From assembly GCA_963854735.1 (NCBI GenBank), contig OY978101.1:372001-436000 (forward strand): DNA of 64,000 nucleotides. The letters run 5' to 3'. Origin of the DNA: Marvania coccoides (Eukaryota > Chlorophyta > Trebouxiophyceae > Chlorellales > Chlorellaceae). Below, in pieces: positions 15,058-43,600 of this stretch (position 1 is its first letter; each line of letters starts with the position of its first letter). The position numbers were made by a program, and so were the translations under genes. The notes under the pieces were generated by a model, which saw only the letters and a program-made list of their open reading frames with translations, was not told the origin of the DNA and made no database searches.

Positions 15058-15188
15058 ATGAAACAAGCAGGGCTGAGAGAGTAAGAAACGGGCTCGGCGT
15101 ATATGAAATTAAATTAATCTGACGGGCACCTCCCCTGGGGAATCTTCGTTAAGCGTATCGTATGTATTCCTCCTCGGGGTGCACTGGG
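15058..15188. other. 3' flank of the GRAM gene
   Basis: Short unique spacer between the GRAM stop codon and the start of the peroxidase repeat unit. No coding signal seen. Confidence 0.5.
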
Positions 15189-18100
15189 CACATGGCATTA
15201 ATTTGAGTGGTCGGTAATTAGGACACCTGAGTGAAACCGCATATTCACACTAGCAGAGGTAAATTGTGCGAAGCTACATTTTGTACACAAGATCTTGCGT
15301 TTAACGGAGAAAATACGATTAATAAACATGCTAGTTTTGCCGTTTTTATATTTTCTAGCGTTATATATCATTTCTTTCTCCCGGTGCATGGATATACTAA
15401 AATCCCCAACTACTCGGCATCCAGCAGCCACTGTGCCAGAAACTTTGCCAGTCTTGAGAACGTCCGTATGTTACAGAGTTGAAGAAGGGGGTGTTGGGGG
15501 GGGGGGGGCGACGACTGATTTGACCTATCAGGATGACAGCTCTGCGAAACTATACGCACTTCAATCTTTTGGCAACCCCAATTCCCTTAGACTGAAAAAC
15601 AAAATAGACAAAATATGTGTGCGGTTTGTGCATGCAGTCGACTCAAACAGAAAACAACCAAGGATAAGGATAATGTTTCCATCACCCGAGTAGCAGGAAC
15701 AAATGATAACCGAAAAAGGGCGAAAGAAGCAATAGCATTAGGACAAGGGTAGAATAGATAGAAATGTTAAGCTGGCCACCGTAGAAAGAAAGTCCTCCAC
15801 ATGTATAATAAGTCTTGTTTGAGATGCTGCGAGTGCAATTTATCTTGATTCATGCAAACTGCAAGAGTGGGAAATGTGGTCTGTATCTTCATCTGAATCT
15901 CGAGTACGAAATAGCTCCACGCCGCTGCATTTCCATCCGTGGCCTTCTCGATGAGCTTGATTGCCCTAGAGATACCGTGAAAGCATGTGATTTTAACAGC
16001 TCTACTATGCCTTGCACGCTTTAGAGCCGCTGTGGTACCCAGCGGCCGTCTGGACCGTCATCTGAAAAAAAGAAAGTTGGGAAAATGCGGCAAATTAAGA
16101 TCAACGTAATGAGAGGAGGGGGGCGGAGAATGCTAAAGTAGGAGTATCAATGCAGGACAGTAGTAATGCCGCGACATACCTTGGAAGCCAGCTGCGAAAA
16201 GAACCAGCACGCCGTATGGGAGCCCCTTCGGAAGCTGTAGCTCCGGCATTTGAGGTTGGCAGAGCACTTGCTGCGGCAGTTGACAAGCGTGATGCCCTTG
16301 ATTGCTCTGAATGCGGGCTTGCCTGTTAGGCGCTTGCCGAAAAGATCAAGCATTGAGCAGGTAACATTGACCGGGGCGGCGCTGGGAGGCGGCGGGCTGC
16401 GAGGAGCAAGGAATAGTGTGTAAACAAGCAGGGCGGTATAAGATGGGGGCAGCAATTGCATTCATCAGCACACTCCGAGGAAACGTTTTGCGCGTTACGA
16501 GACCCCACCCACCCACACAAAATAGGAAAAAGGGAAACGAAAAACGAAAAACGAAAAACGAAAAACGAAAAACGAATTCGATTTGCTCACCTGGGCAGCT
16601 CTTCAGGAGGCGGCGGAGATGCAACGACTTCAATGACTGCGGGCGGCGGCGGCGAAGAAGCGGCGGCGGCAGCTGCATGGAGTGAACGAAAGGTGGCTCA
16701 GAAGGCGTCAATTGAGAATGCACGCACGTAATACAGTCAAAAAAAAATAGCTCAAAACATGGAATGTCTCACGTGGAGGTGAAAAAACGGTAGGGTCAAT
16801 GGGAGAGAGGAAGTTCGCAGGCGTGAGGTGGCTTGGATCGTAGCCCAGGTTGGCCATCTTCAGGAATCGGGCTTTGTACTCCGAGTAAAATTTGCTGTTG
16901 TCGTTCGCAAACTCCACCATGTGAGGCTGGAAGAGCGGCTTGTTCTGGCACATGTCGATGTCTGACTTGAGGCCAGGTCTGGGGAAGGTTGCCTCGGGGC
17001 CGTTGCACACGTCGTACGCTGCGGTGTTTGCCGCCCCGAACGGGCACGAGGCCTCATCCCTGGTCGTGTCGGTGCACTTCTTGCTCCAATCGCACTCGCC
17101 AACGGCCACCCCCTGAATGCCGTCGCAGGCCACCTTGAACACGTTGTTGTCGAAAGACGAAGAATTGAACTGGCCAGAAGGGGTGCAGTCGAAGGGCACG
17201 AAGGGGCAGGTGGTGAGGCCTGCGATTGCAGGAGTTAGGAGGAAGTTCAAAGACAGCAGCGGCTAAAACTGGTTAGAGAGAGAGAGTGCTCTTGGAGGTG
17301 CTCGTACCTGGGCTGTTGGCCCTGCGGAAGCCGCCGATGCTGTGGCTGCCAGTCAGCAGAGTGACCTGGTCGACTTCGTCCAGGCCCATGCGCTTGAATA
17401 CCTCAGCGTGAGGGGCGTCAATAATGCTGTCAGGGGACGGCAGCGGTGGCAGGAACTCATCAGCCACGGTGGCGTCCACCCTTCCCAGGGTGATGGGCAC
17501 GTTAACCTGTCCGTTGGAGCACTGCTTCACCACCGCAGCTGTCCCCATCACGGTGGCGTCAGCCAGGGTCACAAAGCAGTCGCGGTTGTAGATGGACTCC
17601 TTGCCGCAACCTCCTCGCACAGGGAAGTCCCTCTGAGACTCCCTGAAGAAGCTCAGCGTGGGGAGGAGCCCGTCGTTCTCTCCGCGGCACATCTCGGTGG
17701 TCACGGGGCTGCCTTGCAGACACACAGGGATGGTCTCGCCGTTGTCGCTGGCATACCGCCCCACGCACTTGTTTGCGTCGGCGCAGCAAAAGTGCTTTCC
17801 GTCGTAGGGGTAGAAGTTGCCGATCGCGTTGAAGCCGTTGCCGCATCGCGTGCCATCCGCCACCTCAATCACTGCTTGAGGGGTCTCCTCGGGGTCGTCA
17901 AAGCAGTTTTCTGTTAGGCAGTTGGCACCGATGGAGCCGTTGAGACCCCCCGTCCGGTTCTTGGCGTCAAAGGTGCCGGCGTCGTGGAAGAAAAACCGCA
18001 GCCAGGCAGCAGCGGGGAAGAAAACTCCGGGGCCTTCGATCCTGGAGTCCCCGCCGTCGTAATCCATGTCCTTGCGGCTGATGCGGCAGTCCTTGACATT

Positions 18101-18985
18101 GTCCATGAACTCGTTGAACATTCGCTGGGCAGCAGCGGTGTAGGCGGCGCTGGGCTGGAAGGTGGGCGCAAACGATGCCGCCTCCTGCGCACAGAATAAA
18201 CATAAATGAAATTAATGGTAGGCAGCTGATAGGCATCTGGTATCGATTGCATTGGGTGCGCAGGCCAGTTCGTTTCGTACCTGCAGCAGGCCTCGGCGGG
18301 CCTCCGGGGCCTCCATCTCCATCTCAAGGCGGGCTAGGTGCGGGCAAGGGGAGGCAGCGTGCGCAAACGGCGCCATCGCGAGCAGAGCGCATGCCGCCTG
18401 CACAGAGCGGGAGGGTGGGAGAGAAAGTTGACCTGTTCAACGCGCTAATTTATCATTGCGAAATTTGTTGTACCACACAGCATGCGTAGCATCACCATGG
18501 AGGCTACAGTGAACTGGGGAAATCTTCCGCCAACTTCATGCCCGGGGCGCTCAATTAAAATGCACGGCGGGGTGTGAACCTACCAGCAGCACGTGTACGC
18601 TCCTCAGGTTGGCAAGCATTGCGGTTGATCGACGTGCAAGACCACCGCAGCTTGTGTGGTTGATTGGGCTGTGTGGATCTGCAAACACAGCGCAAACACA
18701 GTAAATGATTGCCGTAGAAACCAGGGCATAGAGAACATACGCAAATGAGCCAACAGACCCCCACCCCCACATTTTTGAAATCAAACAATGTGGCAGGCAC
18801 TGATTCTCACCACCCTCCCTGTGGTACTTTGATGTGCCTGAGGTATGCTGCAACCAGACTATCCACAGCATGAATAAACAATAATCATTAATAAATTGAA
18901 ACGAATGGCTGGAGGCTGGAGAGAGAAGAGTACACACTACATTTGTAGGGGAGCTGCTGGTACCTGTGCTGGTACAGGCGCGCAA
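15189..18985. repeat. Peroxidase repeat unit, copy 1
   Basis: Positions 15227-18710 match 23201-26683 with no difference seen by eye except one indel (ATTGCGG against ATGCGG just upstream of the start codon). The offset is exactly 7974 before the indel. The flanks 15189-15226 and about 18711-18985 are also homologous to the other copy's flanks, but clearly diverged. The unit holds the peroxidase gene and its roughly 780-bp 3' flank, which has a poly-G run near 15493-15508. A 7-bp minisatellite (GAAAAAC units, about 16529-16575) lies in one intron. Confidence 0.9.
16005..18619 (-). CDS. Secreted class II-like heme peroxidase with PAN-like C-terminal domain, copy 1
   Basis: Seven exons (18619-18584, 18397-18281, 18184-17308, 17219-16773, 16672-16591, 16396-16180, 16061-16005) join in phase into 610 residues. 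Residues 1-28 form a signal peptide; its hydrophobic core (HVLLAACALLAMAP) spans the first intron, which supports that join. The heme peroxidase domain shows the distal Arg/His in WLRFFFHDAG (114 and 118), GGLNGSI, GRVDAT, and the proximal His in LTGSHSIGG (332). The layout resembles class I/II (ascorbate, lignin or manganese) peroxidases, not plant class III. After about residue 490 comes a Pro/Ala linker, then about 75 residues with six cysteines (C-x-M-L...NCRSKC...KCRSY...ACWFF...KAC) resembling a PAN/apple binding module. Probably an extracellular oxidoreductase; its substrate cannot be read from the sequence. Confidence 0.88.
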
Positions 18986-18986
18986 G

Positions 18987-19071
18987 ATAGCAAGGTTTCA
19001 AGGTTTCAAGGTATTACATATGGTTTAACGTCTCCTACAGAAGGCGCCCCTATAGAGACCTGCAAGGCGAC
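18987..19071 (-). repeat. 3'-end fragment of the LINE-related repeat, reverse orientation
   Basis: Positions 19030-19071 are the reverse complement of the element end seen near 23090-23135. The 32 bases at 19040-19071 are a perfect inverted match to 19610-19641. It ends in a simple CAAGGTTT-type repeat (18990-19012), which would be the tail of the insertion. No coding. Confidence 0.6.
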
Positions 19072-19130
19072 TAATACGATTTTTCTGGCCGCAAAGATCT
19101 CGAAAACCAGGTGCTCGTGGAAAGATGCGA

Positions 19131-19203
19131 TCTAAATTAAATTTAATTTAATTTAATCAAATCAAATCAAATCAATTCAAAACAAATCAAATCAAATCAA
19201 ATT
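19131..19203. repeat. ATCAA/ATTTA-type pentanucleotide microsatellite
   Basis: About 70 bases of repeated AATTT and AATCA words, imperfect. It lies between the two inverted repeat fragments. Confidence 0.8.
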
Positions 19204-19396
19204 TCCAAGCATGTTTATGAAAATCCAGGCTGCGAACTCCGAAAAGGACCATTTCTGCTCAAATAACCAGATGCAAAAGTTGAGATGCAGTACTGAAATA
19301 CATTCTTTATGACGCATTTTTTGTTCGCCAGTGCGCAATATTTGTTCGAATTGCAAATTTTAAATTTCTAACAGTTATTTAAAATGCATCATGTTT

Positions 19397-19641
19397 ACCG
19401 CTTGCCGTCCGGAGAGTCCTGCTTGCACCTCTGTCTTGGAGTTGGTCGCGCCGTTGGGGGACTCAGGAGGGCAGGGGCCAGAGTCTTACATTGTGGGCGA
19501 CGGTGCGGTATCGGCGTAATGCTGTATCCCTACGCCCCCAGTACCTGAGGTTGATCCCACGGGTGGAAGGGGGTACCCCGCCCCGCCTTACTGTGGCGGG
19601 GAGTGGCACGTCGCCTTGCAGGTCTCTATAGGGGCGCCTTC
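19397..19641 (+). repeat. LINE-related repeat (3' region), copy B
   Basis: Aligns by eye with 22880-23120: both contain TCGCGCCG(C/T)TGGGGGACTC, a GTGGCACGTCGCC block and a conserved hairpin with arms CCCGCC/GGCGGG around TTACTGT. It stops at GGCGCCTTC, exactly where the inverted peroxidase fragment begins, so the element's own tail is missing. It may be a truncated LINE end or a SINE that shares that end. Confidence 0.65.
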
Positions 19642-20286
19642 CGCAGTCATTGAAGTCGTTGCATCTCCGCCGCCTCCTGAAGAGCTGCCCAGGTGAGCAA
19701 ATCGAATTCGTTTTTCGTTTTTCGTTTTTCGTTTTTCGTTTTTCGTTTCCCTTTTTCCTATTTTGTGTGGGTGGGTGGGGTCTCGTAACGCGCAAAACGT
19801 TTCCTCGGAGTGTGCTGATGAATGCAATTGCTGCCCCCATCTTATACCGCCCTGCTTGTTTACACACTATTCCTTGCTCCTCGCAGCCCGCCGCCTCCCA
19901 GCGCCGCCCCGGTCAATGTTACCTGCTCAATGCTTGATCTTTTCGGCAAGCGCCTAACAGGCAAGCCCGCATTCAGAGCAATCAAGGGCATCACGCTTGT
20001 CAACTGCCGCAGCAAGTGCTCTGCCAACCTCAAATGCCGGAGCTACAGCTTCCGAAGGGGCTCCCATACGGCGTGCTGGTTCTTTTCGCAGCTGGCTTCC
20101 AAGGTATGTCGCGGCATTACTACTGTCCTGCATTGATACTCCTACTTTAGCATTCTCCGCCCCCCTCCTCTCATTACGTTGATCTTAATTTGCCGCATTT
20201 TCCCAACTTTCTTTTTTTCAGATGACGGTCCAGACGGCCGCTGGGTACCACAGCGGCTCTAAAGCGTGCAAGGCATCGTAGAGCTG
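19641..20286 (+). pseudogene. Inverted partial third copy of the peroxidase 3' end
   Basis: This segment is the reverse complement of 15997-16642. It covers the last bases of peroxidase exon 5, both following introns with the same 7-bp minisatellite, and exons 6-7 (the PAN-like domain). I see identity until a single change inside the stop codon (TAG to TCG), which adds one serine before a new TAG. No peroxidase catalytic exons lie upstream, because a repeat element abuts the left edge. It is therefore a gene fragment and not a working enzyme, although it could still be transcribed. Confidence 0.85.
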
Positions 20287-20830
20287 CTGGACCTTTGCCG
20301 AGCGTATTCTTCCTGGGATCCACGGAGCTCATCTGGAAGGCTGAAGGAAATCTAATCCTTTAGAACTTACGTAAAATTGAGCAAGCCTATTAATATTATA
20401 CACGTCGGAGAACTTTGATTTTATCAACAATGACCATCTTAATTAATTTTTCATCTATTCTGCCCATGTCCTTATGCTATTGCTTCGTTCGCTCAGTCCG
20501 GTTTATTATTTTGTTCTTGCTTTTCGCTCGGGTAATGGAAATGTCCCTACATCCTTTGTTTTTTTTCTGTTTGATTTGATTGCATGCACATATCGCACAC
20601 GCATTTTGCCTATTTTTTTCTCTGAGGGAATTGGGGTTGCCAATTGAAGTGCGTCTATTTTCACAAAGCTACCATCGTGATAGGAAGTCAAGCACCCCAC
20701 CTCCACCGCAATTATGTAACGTAGGATGGCTTCAAGACTGGCAAATTTCTGGCATTGGCTGCTGGACCCCACACGCATTAAATTTTTACAGCAAGCCCCG
20801 AAGCAGGTTGCTTCTTTCATTATGGCCAGC
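20287..20830. repeat. Diverged inverted copy of the peroxidase 3' flank
   Basis: From about 20455 to 20780 the reverse complement matches 15400-15765 with many substitutions and small indels (for example GGGAATTGGGGTTGCC and GCTATTGCTTC are shared). Positions 20287-20455 show little similarity. It continues the inverted copy, but at much lower identity than 19641-20286. Confidence 0.7.
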
Positions 20831-20954
20831 AATGACGCTGGAGGTTACGAAACGCTCCGTGGATGGACACAATACTTTGAATTTCTGGTTTTCTCTTTGT
20901 TTTTCTTTTCTTAATAGTCGTTGTTTCACGTGGCATTAATTTGAGTGGCCTGTA

Positions 20955-21982
20955 ATGTAACGCTGTTCGTCTGCTTTGTGGACTTCAGGAAGGCGTACGA
21001 CTCTGTCCCGCGGGGGAAGCTATGGGAGAAGCTGCGAGAGGCTGGCATGGGGGGCTGGACGATGCGCGCCATCCAGACGCTGTATGCCGACATCCCCGTC
21101 TGCGTCAACGGCGATGCGGGGTTCACAGCCACTTTTCCGTGCCTGGTGGGCCTGCGCCAGGGCTGCCCCCTCAGCCCCACGCTGTTTGGGATGTTCGTGG
21201 ACGACCTGGAGCGCGTGATGCTGGCCGAGACTGGGGCAGACCTGCCGCTGCTGCGCGGCAACCCGCTGCCGCCACTGCTCTACGCTGACGACCTCGCCCT
21301 TCTCTCCACCTCTCCAGCAGGTCTCCAGCGACAGCTCGACGCCCTCCACGCGTACTCAACCGCATCTGGGCTCACCGTCAACCTCACCAAAACCGAGATC
21401 GTCGTTTTCGGCGTAGGACTCGGCCATGTGGAGAGGGGTTGGGAGTGGAAATACGCCGGCGGCATCGTGTCGCGCGTGGCCGCTTTCACGTACCTGGGCT
21501 TCGAGTTCCACGCGCTGCAGCCGTTCGCCGCCGCAGGGGAACGCCGTGCTGCCAAAGCGTTGAGAGCAATGTACACAGTGCGCAAGCGGGCGGCGGAGTT
21601 GGACATCCAAGAGCCAGCGCACATGATTCTGTTGTTCAACGCCATGGTGCTGCCAGGCCTGGAGTACGGCACGGAGGTGTGGGGGGCTGCAGCAGCGACG
21701 GCGTGGGCGGCAGACCCGCTGGGCAGCAGCCATATAGGCAGCCACCGCCTGCTCATGTGTTTTCTGCGCCCGCTGCTGGGGGTTCCAACGATGGGGATCA
21801 ATACGGCGGCGCTGCTGGTGGAGGCAGCGATGTGGCCGTTGGAAATCCGTTTCGCTACAGCGGTGCTGCGCTTTTGGACTCGGCTGCACGAGCTCCCAGA
21901 GGACCACCTCGCCCGCCAGGCGTTCCTGGCCAGCGTGGAGATGGCGGAGGGAGATGAGGCGATGCGAGCAGCAGCGGAGGTG

Positions 21983-22014
<32 letters not shown>

Positions 22015-22559
22015 TGGGCTGCAAGCGGCGTCTCAAGGACGACGCCTCCGAGCTGCTGCACACTAACGCCGAGGAGAAGTGGCTGGCAGCACTGATGACG
22101 TCGCCCAGCCAGCAGATGCGCCACTACCTCGACACCTGGTACCAAATGCCGCTCACCGTCGAGGCGTACGAGCAGCACCGCCACCTCAGCTTGCTGCAGC
22201 GAGCGGACAGAGCAGCGCTGTCGCGCTTTCGGCTTGGGGTGCGGTGGATTCGTGTCCCACGAGCGGGGGAGAGCGGAGTTTGGCACCCACCAGCTCAGTG
22301 CCCGCTCTGCGCGGAGCAGGGCCAGCACCATGACGCGCACATCCTGCGTACCTGCCCCGCCCTCCTCCAAGCGCGCGCTCCGGCGACTGCAGCGCTGGCT
22401 GCATCACCAACGACGAGAAGCCTGCTGGAGCTGGAGGAGGCAGAACTCACCCAGGTGGCGGCCCTGGTGCGGGCAATCCTGGAGGACGTGTATGAGGCGT
22501 ACAAGACTGGCGCACGGAGAGAGAGAGAGACAGAGAGAGAGAGCCAAGTTATGAGATGA
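20955..22559 (+). pseudogene. LINE reverse transcriptase, truncated and frameshifted
   Basis: The first frame (open to 22066) holds RT palm motifs FVDFRKAYDSVPRG (motif A), GLRQGCPLSPTLF, the catalytic YADDLALLS, and GLTVNLTKTE. A second frame (22014-22559) continues the C terminus, including CPLCAEQGQHHDAHILRTC, a zinc-knuckle-like motif typical of LINE RT tails. The switch between frames falls next to a long GCG repeat at about 21985-22012, so a slippage indel there probably broke the frame. The endonuclease, N-terminal RT fingers and any ORF1 are missing. Not expected to be active. Confidence 0.85.
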
Positions 22560-22879
22560 AACTTTGCGAGATGAGTCTGTTTATTTAACTTCCATTTATT
22601 ATGCACGCACGTTCGGTGGTTCGCGCTCCCTACTAGTTAGCTCATTGAAGCTGCCAGTGCGTAAACTTTGGTAGTTTTCTGCACTGCAACGTCGGATGCA
22701 TCACTTCCCCGTGGTATCGCAGTCTCTAATGGACGGGTACAAAAGGCGGGCGCCACTTATTTCAGTGAGCACACCGGGTACTACATCAAAAACCCTTTAG
22801 CCAGGGGTTGAGTGACCGCTGTAGATGGGAGGGGTGCTGGGCGGGCCAGCATTGCCCAAGCGTGAACCCCAAACCTGAC

Positions 22880-23135
22880 GGGCCGTTGCCGTCAGGAGAA
22901 CCCTGCTTTTCCCTTACTTTTAGTCGGTCGCGCCGCTGGGGGACTCCGGAAGGCGGGGGCCAGAGCCTTAACTGTGGGCGGCGGAGCGGTCACTGGCGTA
23001 GTGGCAGTATCCGTACGTCCACCGTACCGGGGGTCGATCCCAGCGGATGGAAGGGGGTACCCGCCTTACTGTGGCGGGAAGTGGCACGTCGCCTTGCAGG
23101 TCTCTATAAGAGCACCTTCTGTAGGAGACGTAACA
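22880..23135 (+). repeat. LINE-related repeat (3' region) with tRNA-like boxes, copy C
   Basis: Contains TGGCGTAGTGG (22994-23004), which fits the tRNA A-box consensus, and GGGTCGATCCC (23031-23041), close to the B box. The conserved CCCGCC/GGCGGG hairpin follows. It is homologous to copy B at 19397-19641. Either a tRNA-derived SINE next to the LINE, or the LINE's own 3' untranslated region. Confidence 0.55.
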
Positions 23136-23167
23136 ACCAGATGTAAACCCATTAAACCCATTAAACC

Positions 23168-26100
23168 CATTAAATTAGGACAGGTTAACAGGCTTAACAA
23201 CTGAGTGAAACCGCATATTCACACTAGCAGAGGTAAATTGTGCGAAGCTACATTTTGTACACAAGATCTTGCGTTTAACGGAGAAAATACGATTAATAAA
23301 CATGCTAGTTTTGCCGTTTTTATATTTTCTAGCGTTATATATCATTTCTTTCTCCCGGTGCATGGATATACTAAAATCCCCAACTACTCGGCATCCAGCA
23401 GCCACTGTGCCAGAAACTTTGCCAGTCTTGAGAACGTCCGTATGTTACAGAGTTGAAGAAGGGGGTGTTGGGGGGGGGGGGGCGACGACTGATTTGACCT
23501 ATCAGGATGACAGCTCTGCGAAACTATACGCACTTCAATCTTTTGGCAACCCCAATTCCCTTAGACTGAAAAACAAAATAGACAAAATATGTGTGCGGTT
23601 TGTGCATGCAGTCGACTCAAACAGAAAACAACCAAGGATAAGGATAATGTTTCCATCACCCGAGTAGCAGGAACAAATGATAACCGAAAAAGGGCGAAAG
23701 AAGCAATAGCATTAGGACAAGGGTAGAATAGATAGAAATGTTAAGCTGGCCACCGTAGAAAGAAAGTCCTCCACATGTATAATAAGTCTTGTTTGAGATG
23801 CTGCGAGTGCAATTTATCTTGATTCATGCAAACTGCAAGAGTGGGAAATGTGGTCTGTATCTTCATCTGAATCTCGAGTACGAAATAGCTCCACGCCGCT
23901 GCATTTCCATCCGTGGCCTTCTCGATGAGCTTGATTGCCCTAGAGATACCGTGAAAGCATGTGATTTTAACAGCTCTACTATGCCTTGCACGCTTTAGAG
24001 CCGCTGTGGTACCCAGCGGCCGTCTGGACCGTCATCTGAAAAAAAGAAAGTTGGGAAAATGCGGCAAATTAAGATCAACGTAATGAGAGGAGGGGGGCGG
24101 AGAATGCTAAAGTAGGAGTATCAATGCAGGACAGTAGTAATGCCGCGACATACCTTGGAAGCCAGCTGCGAAAAGAACCAGCACGCCGTATGGGAGCCCC
24201 TTCGGAAGCTGTAGCTCCGGCATTTGAGGTTGGCAGAGCACTTGCTGCGGCAGTTGACAAGCGTGATGCCCTTGATTGCTCTGAATGCGGGCTTGCCTGT
24301 TAGGCGCTTGCCGAAAAGATCAAGCATTGAGCAGGTAACATTGACCGGGGCGGCGCTGGGAGGCGGCGGGCTGCGAGGAGCAAGGAATAGTGTGTAAACA
24401 AGCAGGGCGGTATAAGATGGGGGCAGCAATTGCATTCATCAGCACACTCCGAGGAAACGTTTTGCGCGTTACGAGACCCCACCCACCCACACAAAATAGG
24501 AAAAAGGGAAACGAAAAACGAAAAACGAAAAACGAAAAACGAAAAACGAATTCGATTTGCTCACCTGGGCAGCTCTTCAGGAGGCGGCGGAGATGCAACG
24601 ACTTCAATGACTGCGGGCGGCGGCGGCGAAGAAGCGGCGGCGGCAGCTGCATGGAGTGAACGAAAGGTGGCTCAGAAGGCGTCAATTGAGAATGCACGCA
24701 CGTAATACAGTCAAAAAAAAATAGCTCAAAACATGGAATGTCTCACGTGGAGGTGAAAAAACGGTAGGGTCAATGGGAGAGAGGAAGTTCGCAGGCGTGA
24801 GGTGGCTTGGATCGTAGCCCAGGTTGGCCATCTTCAGGAATCGGGCTTTGTACTCCGAGTAAAATTTGCTGTTGTCGTTCGCAAACTCCACCATGTGAGG
24901 CTGGAAGAGCGGCTTGTTCTGGCACATGTCGATGTCTGACTTGAGGCCAGGTCTGGGGAAGGTTGCCTCGGGGCCGTTGCACACGTCGTACGCTGCGGTG
25001 TTTGCCGCCCCGAACGGGCACGAGGCCTCATCCCTGGTCGTGTCGGTGCACTTCTTGCTCCAATCGCACTCGCCAACGGCCACCCCCTGAATGCCGTCGC
25101 AGGCCACCTTGAACACGTTGTTGTCGAAAGACGAAGAATTGAACTGGCCAGAAGGGGTGCAGTCGAAGGGCACGAAGGGGCAGGTGGTGAGGCCTGCGAT
25201 TGCAGGAGTTAGGAGGAAGTTCAAAGACAGCAGCGGCTAAAACTGGTTAGAGAGAGAGAGTGCTCTTGGAGGTGCTCGTACCTGGGCTGTTGGCCCTGCG
25301 GAAGCCGCCGATGCTGTGGCTGCCAGTCAGCAGAGTGACCTGGTCGACTTCGTCCAGGCCCATGCGCTTGAATACCTCAGCGTGAGGGGCGTCAATAATG
25401 CTGTCAGGGGACGGCAGCGGTGGCAGGAACTCATCAGCCACGGTGGCGTCCACCCTTCCCAGGGTGATGGGCACGTTAACCTGTCCGTTGGAGCACTGCT
25501 TCACCACCGCAGCTGTCCCCATCACGGTGGCGTCAGCCAGGGTCACAAAGCAGTCGCGGTTGTAGATGGACTCCTTGCCGCAACCTCCTCGCACAGGGAA
25601 GTCCCTCTGAGACTCCCTGAAGAAGCTCAGCGTGGGGAGGAGCCCGTCGTTCTCTCCGCGGCACATCTCGGTGGTCACGGGGCTGCCTTGCAGACACACA
25701 GGGATGGTCTCGCCGTTGTCGCTGGCATACCGCCCCACGCACTTGTTTGCGTCGGCGCAGCAAAAGTGCTTTCCGTCGTAGGGGTAGAAGTTGCCGATCG
25801 CGTTGAAGCCGTTGCCGCATCGCGTGCCATCCGCCACCTCAATCACTGCTTGAGGGGTCTCCTCGGGGTCGTCAAAGCAGTTTTCTGTTAGGCAGTTGGC
25901 ACCGATGGAGCCGTTGAGACCCCCCGTCCGGTTCTTGGCGTCAAAGGTGCCGGCGTCGTGGAAGAAAAACCGCAGCCAGGCAGCAGCGGGGAAGAAAACT
26001 CCGGGGCCTTCGATCCTGGAGTCCCCGCCGTCGTAATCCATGTCCTTGCGGCTGATGCGGCAGTCCTTGACATTGTCCATGAACTCGTTGAACATTCGCT

Positions 26101-26990
26101 GGGCAGCAGCGGTGTAGGCGGCGCTGGGCTGGAAGGTGGGCGCAAACGATGCCGCCTCCTGCGCACAGAATAAACATAAATGAAATTAATGGTAGGCAGC
26201 TGATAGGCATCTGGTATCGATTGCATTGGGTGCGCAGGCCAGTTCGTTTCGTACCTGCAGCAGGCCTCGGCGGGCCTCCGGGGCCTCCATCTCCATCTCA
26301 AGGCGGGCTAGGTGCGGGCAAGGGGAGGCAGCGTGCGCAAACGGCGCCATCGCGAGCAGAGCGCATGCCGCCTGCACAGAGCGGGAGGGTGGGAGAGAAA
26401 GTTGACCTGTTCAACGCGCTAATTTATCATTGCGAAATTTGTTGTACCACACAGCATGCGTAGCATCACCATGGAGGCTACAGTGAACTGGGGAAATCTT
26501 CCGCCAACTTCATGCCCGGGGCGCTCAATTAAAATGCACGGCGGGGTGTGAACCTACCAGCAGCACGTGTACGCTCCTCAGGTTGGCAAGCATGCGGTTG
26601 ATCGACGTGCAAGACCACCGCAGCTTGTGTGGTTGATTGGGCTGTGTGGATCTGCAAACACAGCGCAAACACAGTAAATGATTTACATCGCAATTAGAGC
26701 GCGTCCGCGTGGGCAAATGAACAAACAGACCGACCCCACACATTAAAATCAAAACAAAGACGAGACAGATACTGATTGCCGTCTTTCTCTGCGTACCTGG
26801 TATGCTGCAACAGGACTATCAATCACTGCGAGAACAAACACTGAATAAACAAATGAATGGAGTGTGAGAAAGATGGGAAACGTCGACTACAGTTGTAGTG
26901 CCAGCTGCTGTACAACATGGACCTACAAAGGGGTGATGTACAAGTGTTGATTATTTGACTCACATCATAACGCCCTTTTGCGGTACGGTA
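23168..26990. repeat. Peroxidase repeat unit, copy 2
   Basis: Counterpart of copy 1. The near-identical core is 23201-26683. Outside the core, 26684-26990 still aligns with 18711-18985 (shared words such as GGTATGCTGCAAC and GCAAATGA) but with frequent substitutions and indels. On the other side the LINE separates the unit from its original flank at 20933. Confidence 0.85.
23979..26593 (-). CDS. Secreted class II-like heme peroxidase with PAN-like domain, copy 2
   Basis: Exons 26593-26558, 26371-26255, 26158-25282, 25193-24747, 24646-24565, 24370-24154 and 24035-23979 encode the same 610 residues as copy 1; every coding stretch I compared translates identically. All splice sites, the distal and proximal heme residues, the signal peptide and the six-Cys tail are retained, so this copy also looks functional. 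It differs from copy 1 in the region before the start codon: a 1-bp deletion immediately upstream, and diverged sequence beyond 26683. The two genes may therefore make the same protein under different control. Confidence 0.87.
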
Positions 26991-27380
26991 CGCATTTTGT
27001 TGCACCCACAAAGTGCCCTTGGGTAAACTTCTCGAATAGCGAACGGGTCAGAAGTTTATATTTCCAAGTACAACTCTGTAGCTACCCCGAAATTTTAGAG
27101 CCGACGCATTTTCGTGGAAGTACGGGGTGTTTTGAACGTTACACTGGGCTTATTAAAAAATACAAAAATACAAATATACAATGGGGGCGGGTTCTTCAAA
27201 AAATTCACCGCCCCGTCATCACTCAATCTCTCTCTGATTATTCGATATGGCGCGCAGCTTTCAGATTCCTCAACTCCTCTATTTATGTCTTGTCTCGTTT
27301 TTCTGCTCTAAGCAATTATATTGATTAAAAATGGCGAGGTCATCTCCATCCACAACTAACAACCCAATCCTCAATTCGAT
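26991..27380. other. AT-rich spacer upstream of peroxidase copy 2
   Basis: Lies between the diverged upstream flank of the peroxidase and the 3' end of neurochondrin. Nothing coding or structured was seen. Confidence 0.5.
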
Positions 27381-30310
27381 TTAATCATTCAACCGCAACG
27401 CGCTCGCCAAGCTCCCCTCCAACTGCCCCGCCACAAGCTCTTCGACCCACTCTGGCGCCACCCGCACCAGCTTCTCAGCAGCTGCCTGCATGGCATCGCA
27501 ATCTCCCGTCAATGCAGTCAAACTTTCTTCCAGAGCATTTGAAGGGGATTCTAACGCAATGAGCGTGCTGCGCACGTCCCGCATGCTGCACGCTAACGCC
27601 TCGCATGCCAGTTTAGCATCAGTTCTGCTGATAGGGCCCAATCCTGTGCGGAGACTGTCCCGACTAAACAGCACCTGCTGTGCCGCATGCGCTGCATCCG
27701 GGTGGTCAGCCTCCGCCGCCACCGCCGCCAGCACCTCTGCCAGCAACGCAGCGCAGCATGCGCAGCACGCAGCGCGCCCCAGCCGCTCCTCGGCGGAGGC
27801 TTTGCCACAGGAGGCATCGATCGTTGCAGCTGCAGAACTGGAGAGCGCTTCAGTGAGGGCGGTGACCAGCGGCCAGGCCGCATCAGCCACCGCGAACCGT
27901 AGCCCTTCGGTGTGCGAGGCGGCGTCCAGCGGCTGTGCATCCATCAGGACTTGTAGCAAAACTCTAGCTGAGGCGACCAAAGGGCCGTCTGGGCCCCCCG
28001 CCGCAGCGTCCCCTGCTGCAAACACGGCGTAGTCCACCAAATGGTGCAGTCCTCCGCCTTGAGTGATCGTTTCCACCCACTTTCGTGCCCCTCCTCCTTC
28101 ACCACCTTCACCGCTGCTGGTTAAACTTTCTATTTCGGAAGCTCGTTGCGGGTCTGTCACCTGCAGCAGTAGCGGCAGCAGGAATGTGACGCCCTCTGCC
28201 AGCCCGCTGCCCCGCGGCTCCTCGTCCTCACCGCGGACCTTGTGAATAAAGTCGCCAAATGAGTAGGTGAGCGATGACACTGAGGGAGGGGACTCGCCGA
28301 TGAGGGAGGGCGAGACGGAGTCCCCAAAGACGTCTCCCACGCGCACGCCCAGCATCCGCGGCAGCGCAGCTCGTAGTCTGTCCCCAAAGGCGTCGGGGAG
28401 TTCGGCCAAAAATCTGCCGAGCGCTCTAACGGCTCCCACTTGCACGGAGGCGGTGGCGGGGTCGTCGATGCGGTCCGACTCTTCGGTGGTCTGCTCCAGG
28501 AACTGCAGCAGCGTGTCTGCGGTCTGGTGCAGGGACGCCAGCGCCCGGTGTGATATTTCTGGAGGGAGGACGCTGAAAGAATCGCCGCTGCCGGGGGGCT
28601 GCGGGGATTCTGACGCCGCCAGCACCTCCACCGCTGCTTCAAACAGGGAGAAGCAGCACGGCAGCATGCGCAGGGCACGGGCGCCTGCAGCTTCGTTGGC
28701 CGCTGCTGCAGGGCTTTCTGGCGGGATTTCAGCGTTGCTGCCCAAAGGCGTGTCTTCATCCGCATCATCTTCTTCATCATTATCGAGCGCAAACTGCTCT
28801 TCCGCTTCTGCTGCTTCTTTTTCTACCGTTGCTGCTGCTTGGTGTGACGTTTGGCCTTGCTGCAACGACGCGCCCATTGAGCTGCTCTCTTCATCCTCTC
28901 CTTCTTCAGTAATCTGGGAGCTAGAGGGTGGCAGCGACTCTCCCTGCCGCTGCTGGGTGCGGTCCATGCTTCCTTCAGGTATCGTCAGCAAGGCGGCAGT
29001 GGGCGGCGCAAACGCAGGCACTCTGGCCTGCGGCGCCAGCGCGTCGTGCAGCAGCACGCTCGTTTCCACGCCCGTCACCTCCACCACCAGCTGGAAAAAC
29101 TTTCCATCGCCTGCCAGCCATTCCGGCCCAGCCACCGCCACCGTAGCAGCTGCCAGCTGCAGGGCAGCGTGCCTCTGCGCCATCCCCACGCGCCCTTGTA
29201 GCACTAAGCCAACTCCCAGTCGCATGTGGGCCTCCCATATGCCAGAACCTGCTGCACTCCCATCGCCATCATCGCCTTCATAGCCTAAACTACAGAGGCA
29301 GCCAGGCACAGAAGCTGCCCAAGGGAGGATCATGAGCAGCGCCTGCAGGGCTTCTAGGTGCAGCCCCACCGCGCGCCGCTTGGCGGCTTCCTCCGACACC
29401 AACGCTGGCAGCGCGAAAGTTCTCGCCAGCCCTGCCACTAGCGCTGCCATTTCGCCGCCATCCAGCGCTTGGATGATGACCGCGGGGTCCATGCTCGCCA
29501 GCACCGCCGCCGCCAGCCGCACCGCCCACGCATCCCCTTCCAAAACCTCTTCCTCATTATTTATTAATGCCGAGGAGCGGTGCAAGGCGGTTGCCGCGGC
29601 CTCCAGCGCGCCAGACTCCTCCGCGATGCGACTGCCTTCTTCCCCAGACGCCGCCACGGCGGCTGCGCACTCCAGCGCGTGCCTCACGCCCTCTACATCC
29701 GTTGCTGTGGAAGCCTCTCCAGCAGCACTGCCGCCGCTCTTCGCAGCGGTTCGAGACGCCAACAGCGGGGAGATTCCGCCCGCGCGCACGATGTTCAAGA
29801 ACAGCGGTGTCAGGGAAAGAAAGTCTGAGCTCGCTGCGACGTTGGGCACTTGAGCTATGCTGGAAAGGACGGTCAGCCCTAACGCCGCCAGCCCCTCTTC
29901 TTTCTGAGCCGCTTCAAGGGAGAGGGGGGGCTCGGCAGCGGGGCGCTGCACGCGCAGAGGCAGCAGCAGACGCGCCAGGAAGGTGGGCCCCACTGCTGCG
30001 TAGACCTGTCGAAGAATTTCGGGGTTGCCGGGCGGAAGCGCGCTGGGCACCATCAGCAGCCCAACCAGCCTGCATAGCGCGGTGTATTGGGAACGTATCA
30101 GACGCTTGGTCATTAACATAGGCGATTGGGGGAGGGGGGGGGTGGAATTGTTTCGACGCACTTCCGCTCATCGCTAGGCCCCTTGAGCAGCTCGATGCAC
30201 TCGGCCAGGAGATTTGCGTCCACAGCTGGATCGGTTTGGGTTATAATGGGTTGTGGAGGCGGTGCAGAGGCCTTGGCAGCTGGGCTAGGCCCCAAAAAGC
30301 CGGCTTGCAT
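27381..30310 (-). CDS. Neurochondrin family protein
   Basis: Exon 1 (30310-30162) and exon 2 (30069-27381) give 945 residues, with a 92-bp GT-AG intron. The join produces LLKGPSDERKLVGLLMV, the conserved opening of the neurochondrin domain, followed by VYAAVGPTFLARLL. The rest is a long alpha-helical, Ala/Leu-rich solenoid with an acidic insert near residues 430-500 (EEGEDEESSS, NDEEDDADEDT). Neurochondrins are cytosolic helical-repeat proteins. In animals they act in neurite outgrowth and signalling; the role in plants and algae is little known. An upstream in-frame ATG at 30352 is an alternative start. A 338-residue open frame on the opposite strand is a composition shadow. Confidence 0.88.
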
Positions 30311-40670: not shown

Positions 40671-43600
40671 TCACCGAGGCCTTTCTCGCAGCACAAACAC
40701 GCGGTCCGACGCCTCCAGCCGCTCCGTGGCCGGCGGATTCGCCACCACGTAGCTCAGCCGCGTCAACGGGTTCTCTGTCTTGCTACGATACAAACCCAGG
40801 CACACCTCGCACTTGCCCACAGCCCACGCCGCAAACAGCTCCCCGTAGCTCCTGCCCACAAACCGCTTGGGCAGCGGCATCAGCCGCAGCAGCGCACCGC
40901 TGGTGGGCTTCTCCTCCCCGCCCTTGCCGCCCACATCGCTGCTGCTTTCGCGTCCCAAATCGCCACTCATCTCCGCCAAAACCTCCACCAGCAGCCCCTT
41001 CCCGAAGAAGCACTGCGTGGCGAAGGTGTCCATCAGCGCTGGCACCGTAACCCGGCCTGCAGCGTAGTAAGGATTGGCCTGCCACTCGGCCAGCCCCTCC
41101 GCCACTGCCTCCCGCTGCTGCCACGCCCGCATGGTCCAGGACTTGCGCGGGGCGCCGCCCGGGGTGCTGGTGTCGTCGTATAGCGAGCTCACCCCTCGCA
41201 GCAGCAGCCCTGGCTGCAGAAACTCGATGCTGGTCGTGAACAGAAGCTCAACCACCGCATGCGTCAGCGACGACCCAGACTCCTCTCCCACGCCGTAGCA
41301 CGCCAGCAGCGCGGCAGCGTCCGCCAACACCGCCTCCCGGGTGGAGCGTTCCTGCTCCACAGCGGCCCCCGTGCCTTGAGCAGTTTTTACCGGGCGGGAG
41401 CCTCTCGCTAGGTACACCAAGGCTTTGGCGGTGGCTGCGCCGGCTGCGCGCAGCGAGGCGGCCTCGGCAGGGGAGCCTGTGACGTGGGACACGGGCCCGA
41501 AGCGCCGCTGCGCCTCTTGCAGGTCCCTCGGGGGCTTCAGGGAGAGAACGACAATGCGCACGGATTCAGAGGGCTCCGCGGCGCGGAGGTACGCCAAAAA
41601 GGGGATCAAGCTGCCGATGTGACCGCACACGATAAAGTGCCCGCTGAAAGGGGCCTCCCGCAGCGCCGACCGTTGCCGCTCCGCCTCCTGCTGCTGCTGC
41701 AGCGTCTCCACCTGCTGCGGCTGCGTTTCTTCCGCTTGCTGCTCCTCTTTTGCCTGCTCAACCATCCCACTACTTCCGGCCCCATTCTCTTCCCCTTGCG
41801 GCTGTTTATTGAACCCAGCAGCCTGTGCCAGCACTCTGGCCGTCTGCAGCCCTAGTTTTCCCAGCTCCTCCTGCTCCTCCTGCGCCTGGGCGTCCTCCGC
41901 GAAGCGCTGCATGAACAACCGCGCGTCCGCCTCGCTTTGAATGGCGTTTGCCACGTCAGCAGGCACGCAGGGCACCGCATCAGCGTCCAGACTCTCGCTC
42001 TCATAATTTCCCCACACCACGGGGAAACACATGTCCGGCTGCTCTTGCGCCAGCTCCTCGCTCTCGGTGCCGCTCCCACCGCCACCTCCGCCGCCTTCTC
42101 GAGACCCTAAAGGGTGGGGACGAGGCATAAATTCTTCGGCCAATGCCCGCCTTACCACGCGCTTGTCCGGCCCCACCACCAGCAGCTGCGTGCCCATGCG
42201 CAACTCCTCCTGAGCAGGGTTGAGCCTGACTTTCTTACCGGGGTCGATAACCCCCATCAGTACGAATCCAGCGCTGCGGTACAGCCACTCCGCAACCTCC
42301 ATGAATTTTCTTCCTGCCAGGTGGCGCTGCATGGGCGCGGTACAGAACGAAAACGCACAACCGTTGACGAACTGCCGCAGCCAACGCCGCCCCGCCAGCG
42401 TCTCGCCTTGAACGTCGGGAGGAAGGACGGCAGAGGAGCGCATGAGGTTGCCGATGAGGGTGGAGGCCCCAGGGGTCACAGCGCTGAGAGCCAGCAGCCG
42501 GTACCTAAAAAAATAAATTACCCCCGAACACAATTTGAGAAAGGTTCCAAGGACATAAAAATAGCGCTTTGTTGTTGTTGTTGTTGTTGTTTTATCAAGC
42601 ATAAAAATTACTGATGCAGTACGGGAAGCAATAATCGAATTAACCGCAAGTTTTAGCAAATCCGCGGGCCCCCTCTCTCACCTCGTCTGCTCCGCGCTGA
42701 ACACCACGTCCTGCCCTGGGTCCAGAAACGGCGCTACCTGGCGAACCGTCTTCTCCCTGAGCGTCTGCACAAACAGTGGCACCGTCTTGGTGTAGCCCTT
42801 GCATGCCCACACCTGGAAAAGCACGCTCAGGTCCTCCGATTCTGGGTCGGTGGTGAAGCGGTCCGCCAAGAGCAGCACGGCGTTGGCCCGCTCCGCCCTC
42901 ACGGTGACCAAATCCTGCCCAGACACCGCAGAACCCTCCACCAGCGTCATTTCTCGGTCGTGCAGCTCCTGGAAGGCGGAAAACTCAAAGGAGGGGCGGT
43001 TGCATAGCACGAGGAGCTTGGTGGAGCGCGGAAATCGGGCTGAGGAGGAGGACGCCAGCGTCTGCTGAAACTCGGCAAACAGGTCGCTGAAGGCGCGGAC
43101 CTCGGTGAGCCGGGAAGACAGCAGCACAAAGGGTTTCCCTCGCCAGTCCGGCAGCGTGCCGCGCATCACCCTCCTGGCGTTGACTTCGGTGTAGAAAGCT
43201 GCCGCCTGGACCGGGATCAAAACGATGCCGAGGGCGATCATGCCCATGATGGCGGCGCGGCCCAGCATGGAGGTGGCCACCACGTCGCCGTAGCCCACCG
43301 TGGACAGCGTGGTGGCCACCAGGTAGACCGCCTTGTGGAAAGGCATTTGCTCGACAACCTGGGACGACAAGAAAAATTGAATATTATTGGTGATTAATGA
43401 TAAAAGTACTGGGAATTGGCAAAATGAAATCTATAAATCCAAATTATCTAGCCCTTGCAGGTGTTAGGATACGACCATAATGAAAGAAACTGCTGTTTTT
43501 TTGATTTTCGATTCCGTTAGATATTATAATTAATTTCCTTATTTCCTTTACCTGGATTATTGCCGAGGCGATGAAGAGCAGCATGAACACCGAGGTGGCC

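Follow-up and report, generated by a model that had tools for sequence, protein, structure and literature searches.

An old three-copy peroxidase cluster in Marvania coccoides, probably homogenised by interlocus gene conversion

How can two linked genes be identical, introns included, between flanks that have long since diverged? The question is raised by a peroxidase gene cluster of the trebouxiophyte green alga Marvania coccoides, located in a stretch of 64,000 nucleotides (assembly GCA_963854735.1, contig OY978101.1, positions 372,001 to 436,000; hereafter the window, with coordinates counted from its first letter). The cluster contains two complete genes, copies 1 and 2, and a partial inverted copy 3 between them. 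It is best explained as an old three-copy cluster that was recently homogenised by interlocus gene conversion, with a probability of about 0.85. Copies 1 and 2 are direct repeats with a start-to-start spacing of ~8 kb, and hand splicing from splice signals gives seven exons and an identical 610-amino-acid protein for both:

15227..18710, minus strand: homogenised core of copy 1, 3484 bp, reaching from 91 bp upstream of the ATG to ~0.78 kb into the 3' flank
23201..26683, minus strand: homogenised core of copy 2, 3483 bp, encoding the same 610-amino-acid protein as copy 1
18619-18584, 18397-18281, 18184-17308, 17219-16773, 16672-16591, 16396-16180, 16061-16005, minus strand: exons of copy 1, hand-made model
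26593-26558, 26371-26255, 26158-25282, 25193-24747, 24646-24565, 24370-24154, 24035-23979, minus strand: exons of copy 2, hand-made model

When the window is compared with itself by blastn, 15223-18710 and 23197-26683 are 99.94% identical over 3488 columns, and all eight pairs listed at E 1e-5 fall within 15.2-26.7 kb. Base-by-base alignment leaves two differences between the paired units, a C/A at 15226/23200, which is the core edge and lies outside the core proper, and one missing T at 18619. The latter is the lone difference within the core, and an initial annotation of this DNA, which described a core of 3,484 bp differing by one 1-bp indel, is exact to the base at both boundaries. Substitutions are found at 0 of the 3483 aligned core sites (95% upper bound 0.00086 per site), including ~1651 bp of non-coding DNA and 432 synonymous sites, and identity at such neutral sites is a mark of gene conversion. 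The G13 and nine-A runs have the same length in copies 1 and 2, and a 7-bp microsatellite has 6.0 copies in each of copies 1, 2 and 3.

Outside the core the picture changes, and the following segments are needed to describe it:

18711..18985 (aligned part 18741-18963), minus strand: old unconverted 5' flank of copy 1, pairwise alignment
26684..26990 (aligned part 26713-26913), minus strand: old unconverted 5' flank of copy 2, pairwise alignment
15189..15226, minus strand: old 3' flank of copy 1, of which 15189-15218 is identical to 20927-20956 at 27 of 30 positions
20927..20956, minus strand: probable old 3' flank of copy 2, separated from it by a long interspersed nuclear element (LINE)
23175..23200, minus strand: short stretch from the LINE tail to the copy-2 core, with only a 10-bp word matching copy 1 (E 1.3)

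At the 5' edge, identity falls from 1.00 to 0.48 at 18710 in sampled 25-column windows, a step and not uniform divergence. Beyond the step, 18741-18963 and 26713-26913 are identical in 156 of 234 columns (44 gapped), with 0.179 substitutions per ungapped site; their alignment score of 137 compares with a mean of 34.8 (standard deviation 6.0, maximum 63) for 300 dinucleotide shuffles with the core excluded, and the diverged but homologous 5' flanks of the initial annotation are thereby upheld. Homology was not found farther upstream, between 18991-19400 and 27000-27380 (Z -0.9). The different upstream sequences attributed to the two genes are real beyond ~90 bp, whereas the first ~90 bp upstream of the start codon are common to both. 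The 3' homology, also claimed earlier, is present in the 30-bp match and is short; the copy-2 flank is probably split by the LINE, and 23175-23200, where only the 10-bp word matches, is probably a remnant of it. Homology outside the core runs on at both ends in the correct order, with 30 bp carrying the 3' side.

Two copies had been recognised earlier; the actual count is three, with an inverted tract that had gone unlisted:

19635..20286, plus strand: copy 3, inverted partial copy with the linker and PAN-like tail exons and their introns, found by self-comparison
20332..20766, plus strand: 3' flank of copy 3, old and unconverted, with homology to the reverse complement of 15420-15866, substitution divergence 0.178

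The 652-bp inverted match is 99.54% identical to each gene (three mismatches versus copy 1) and contains an exact run of 636 bp, 19641-20276. As a probe, the 652 bp give three matches in the 22.46-Mb, 15-contig assembly, all within the cluster (3/3 candidates scored). A near-identical tract bounded by diverged homologous sequence, the signature of gene conversion, is therefore observed both for the core and for copy 3, where a non-significant piece of 107 bp lies between the tract and the 3' flank. Because the step recurs in an inverted copy, and there with different end points, gene conversion is the simplest cause. The proposal that the genes were duplicated long ago and their bodies converted recently is strengthened by the identity-to-divergence step and by this second case (636 bp exact, 3' flank at 18%). 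Splice sites and reading frame are intact in the copy-3 tract, and an in-frame ATG was not found in the interval from the preceding stop codon to the tract, a combination that fits a fragment overwritten by a working gene. Copy 3 itself is unlikely to be a working gene for want of that ATG, though an upstream exon is possible.

The history would begin with an ancestral peroxidase gene giving rise to three linked copies, two direct and one inverted between them, which would have drifted to ~0.2 substitutions per site in non-coding sequence, with the 5' part of the inverted copy being lost at a LINE junction. At a much later time, double-strand breaks would have been repaired with a neighbouring copy as template, i.e., by interlocus gene conversion. 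One copy would thereby have been overwritten from 91 bp upstream of the ATG to a point ~0.78 kb beyond the stop codon, and a tract of 636 bp over the last exons would have been exchanged with the inverted remnant, the old divergence being kept outside the tracts. The likely outcome is a pair of identical peroxidases whose distal promoters differ, together with a gene fragment renewed from the adjacent copies. What is observed directly is the layout of the cluster, the steps in identity and the contrast in divergence; from these we infer the repair mechanism, the number and direction of events and any consequence for expression. Since introns are retained, the transfer would have occurred at the DNA level. 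The 5' flanks of copies 1 and 2 (0.179) and the copy-3 3' flank against copy 1 (0.178) have diverged to a similar degree, which suggests a roughly simultaneous origin of the three copies; divergence of the 30-bp 3' flank is only 0.10. The 1-bp indel is probably a loss in copy 2, because a paralogue on contig 12 has the copy-1 spacing at the ATG, the polarity being weak and based on a single gappy non-coding alignment.

Several points weigh against conversion. The 3' homology beyond the core amounts to 30 bp at just 10% divergence, and a genome search with 15150-15230 listed only the query itself and not this match. The copy-2 5' flank was not among the matches listed for 18700-19400 (40/167 candidates scored). 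With the genome searches lacking the flank homologies, the flank claims rest on pairwise tests. Chance similarity is ruled out by the shuffles for the flanks, except for 20287-20393, just past the copy-3 tract, which alone is non-significant (score 34 vs shuffle maximum 37). A tract of 3.48 kb is long for an ectopic event, and several events may have merged; it may represent one long event or several overlapping ones. A review puts the average tract in yeast at ~500 bp where minimum lengths are used, or at 200-300 bp; maximum-likelihood estimates range from ~50 to several hundred bp (PMC3924818). Tracts in human Y palindromes have a mean of 2068 bp and exceed 9 kb (PMC3723533). The core tract is long against the former averages (PMC3924818) and within the latter range (PMC3723533).

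The main risk is assembly error, as the evidence comes from one assembly. There is a small chance that differing copies, or a single true copy, were written twice as one consensus; near-perfect repeats are places where assemblies err, and the sole core difference is a 1-bp indel. Such indels are a common type of long-read error. Both units, however, are placed on a single 1.77-Mb contig, where their flanks differ and other elements separate them; polishing would not be expected to bring ~18% divergence to 0, and the pattern recurs in copy 3 with boundaries of its own. The copy-1 ATG spacing of the contig-12 paralogue also makes a genuine 1-bp deletion in copy 2 plausible, albeit weakly. Smaller still is the chance of unequal crossing-over, in which the direct repeats, a suitable substrate at ~8 kb apart, would have expanded and then contracted without non-reciprocal conversion; at least two crossovers inside the core would be needed, both ends would have to regain their old flanks, and the process alone gives the inverted copy no tract. 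Crossing-over between inverted copies inverts the intervening DNA. A recent duplication of a 3.5-kb segment into unrelated DNA, which core identity alone would suggest, is contradicted by the flank homology, as a fresh duplication would leave no collinear old flanks, and is thus hardly credible. As to whether that homology might be a dispersed repeat, the 43 non-self matches listed for 18700-19400 fall at query positions 290-372, the LINE-like part.

Two other candidates were rejected. Purifying selection on the protein is excluded as the cause of identity, because the introns and ~0.78 kb of downstream DNA match as completely as the exons do, and retrocopying is excluded because introns are kept.

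The cluster also contains several repeats:

20957..23174, plus strand: LINE-type retroelement piece with a (TAAACCCAT)n tail, reverse transcriptase PF00078 (E 4.2e-21)
19402..19641, plus strand: LINE 3'-end fragment directly abutting the start of the copy-3 tract, 80.7% to 22886-23119
19002..19071, minus strand: second short LINE 3'-end fragment, upstream of copy 1, 85.9% to the reverse complement of 23088-23158, dispersed family
20783..20927, no strand assigned: dispersed repeat of ~145 bp, with the copy-3 and copy-2 3' flanks on either side, genome search

The large LINE is probably 5'-truncated, as the PF00078 profile is entered at position 70; its left end would lie near 20957, the comparison with other copies having covered 21463-23174. 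This part is 94.7-94.8% identical to the two longest-matching copies, and shorter alignments span 77.8-99.4%. The LINE 3' end has at least 41 family matches among those listed in the genome (40/244 candidates scored). These ends are near-identical, 27 of the 41 listed rows being at >=98% (the window's own included), and one family copy lies <3 kb from a contig end (C7:2669-2902). The tail resembles the plant-type telomere repeat. For the ~145-bp repeat, 37 of 40 listed rows are dispersed copies and the other three are the query and two gene flanks.

Two of the four tract ends are at or near LINE junctions, the copy-3 start at 19641 and the core 3' end (23200), ~25 bp from the LINE tail. This position is suggestive, at one locus only. 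A more speculative proposal, held to be rather doubtful, is that LINEs set the tract edges and shield the flanks, and that the inverted promoterless fragment acts as a lasting donor or as an inversion route swapping 3' ends.

The homogenised genes were labelled peroxidases earlier, correctly so, as the profile of the plant haem peroxidase superfamily, PF00141, matches at E 3.2e-15 with 57 bits against a curated threshold of 27, the best stretch being 255-340. The protein matches 14 solved sequences, all of them ascorbate peroxidases, and LRFFFHDAGTF and LLTGSHSIGG lie inside the stretches aligned with ascorbate peroxidase; these would be the distal Arg/His and proximal His motifs. The peroxidases are probably secreted, from a signal peptide recognised by eye. 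A proline-rich linker joins the peroxidase part to a C-terminal tail (residues ~530-610), called only 'PAN-like' because PAN/apple profiles score below curated cut-offs (PF00024 at E 6.7e-4, 19.9 bits vs 21.4; PF14295 and PF08276 likewise). The 12 homologues listed (7992 candidates scored) all bear PF00141 and no PAN annotation, and the best named match among them is from Tetradesmus obliquus (42-44%), which belongs to a green-algal class other than the trebouxiophytes. Paralogues occur in the genome on contig 12 (dS to copy 1 ~0.67 over 476 codons) and on contig 5 at 53-55 kb (~1.03 over 472 codons), where dS is synonymous divergence and some codons, few in number, may have been counted double where pieces overlap. 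The contig-12 paralogue has no match beyond residue 481; other loci of the same genome match the tail.

Three other genes or open frames were noted: a neighbouring UDP-sugar pyrophosphorylase gene with its best named match in Chlorella sorokiniana (70%), an open frame at 27381-30167 (minus strand) with a neurochondrin match (PF05536, E 5.4e-26) that adjoins copy 2 on its 5' side, and an open frame at 40671-42677 (minus strand) with matches to profiles of BK-type calcium-activated potassium channels (PF03493, PF22614).

No paper on this peroxidase locus was among those listed in the literature searches, which does not show that none has been published. The nearest parallel found is the Amy-p/Amy-d pair of Drosophila, described as genes evolving in concert by ectopic gene conversion while their flanks evolve independently (PMC3924832). 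Here, in contrast, the full genes are direct repeats, the tract extends over introns and into 0.78 kb of 3' flank, and only a fragment stands in inverted orientation, so that two intact inverted copies, as in a palindromic Amy-like pair, are not present. In the Drosophila Hsp70 genes, too, ectopic conversion maintains the similarity of closely linked copies, but these are pairs of palindromic copies, and the available part of the source does not mention a LINE-truncated fragment (PMC3924832). The human Y palindrome P6 shares multi-kilobase conversion tracts between linked copies; its large inverted repeats, >99.9% similar arm to arm, differ from the short islands in old divergence seen here (PMC3723533).

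The locus is a further example of a known process, and knowledge of that process is unchanged. It offers a compact natural three-way record of interlocus conversion, in which both direct and inverted partners take part and retroelements mark two of the four tract ends. It is suited to asking how such tracts begin and end, and whether enzymes that have been homogenised, but whose promoters are partly different, differ in expression.
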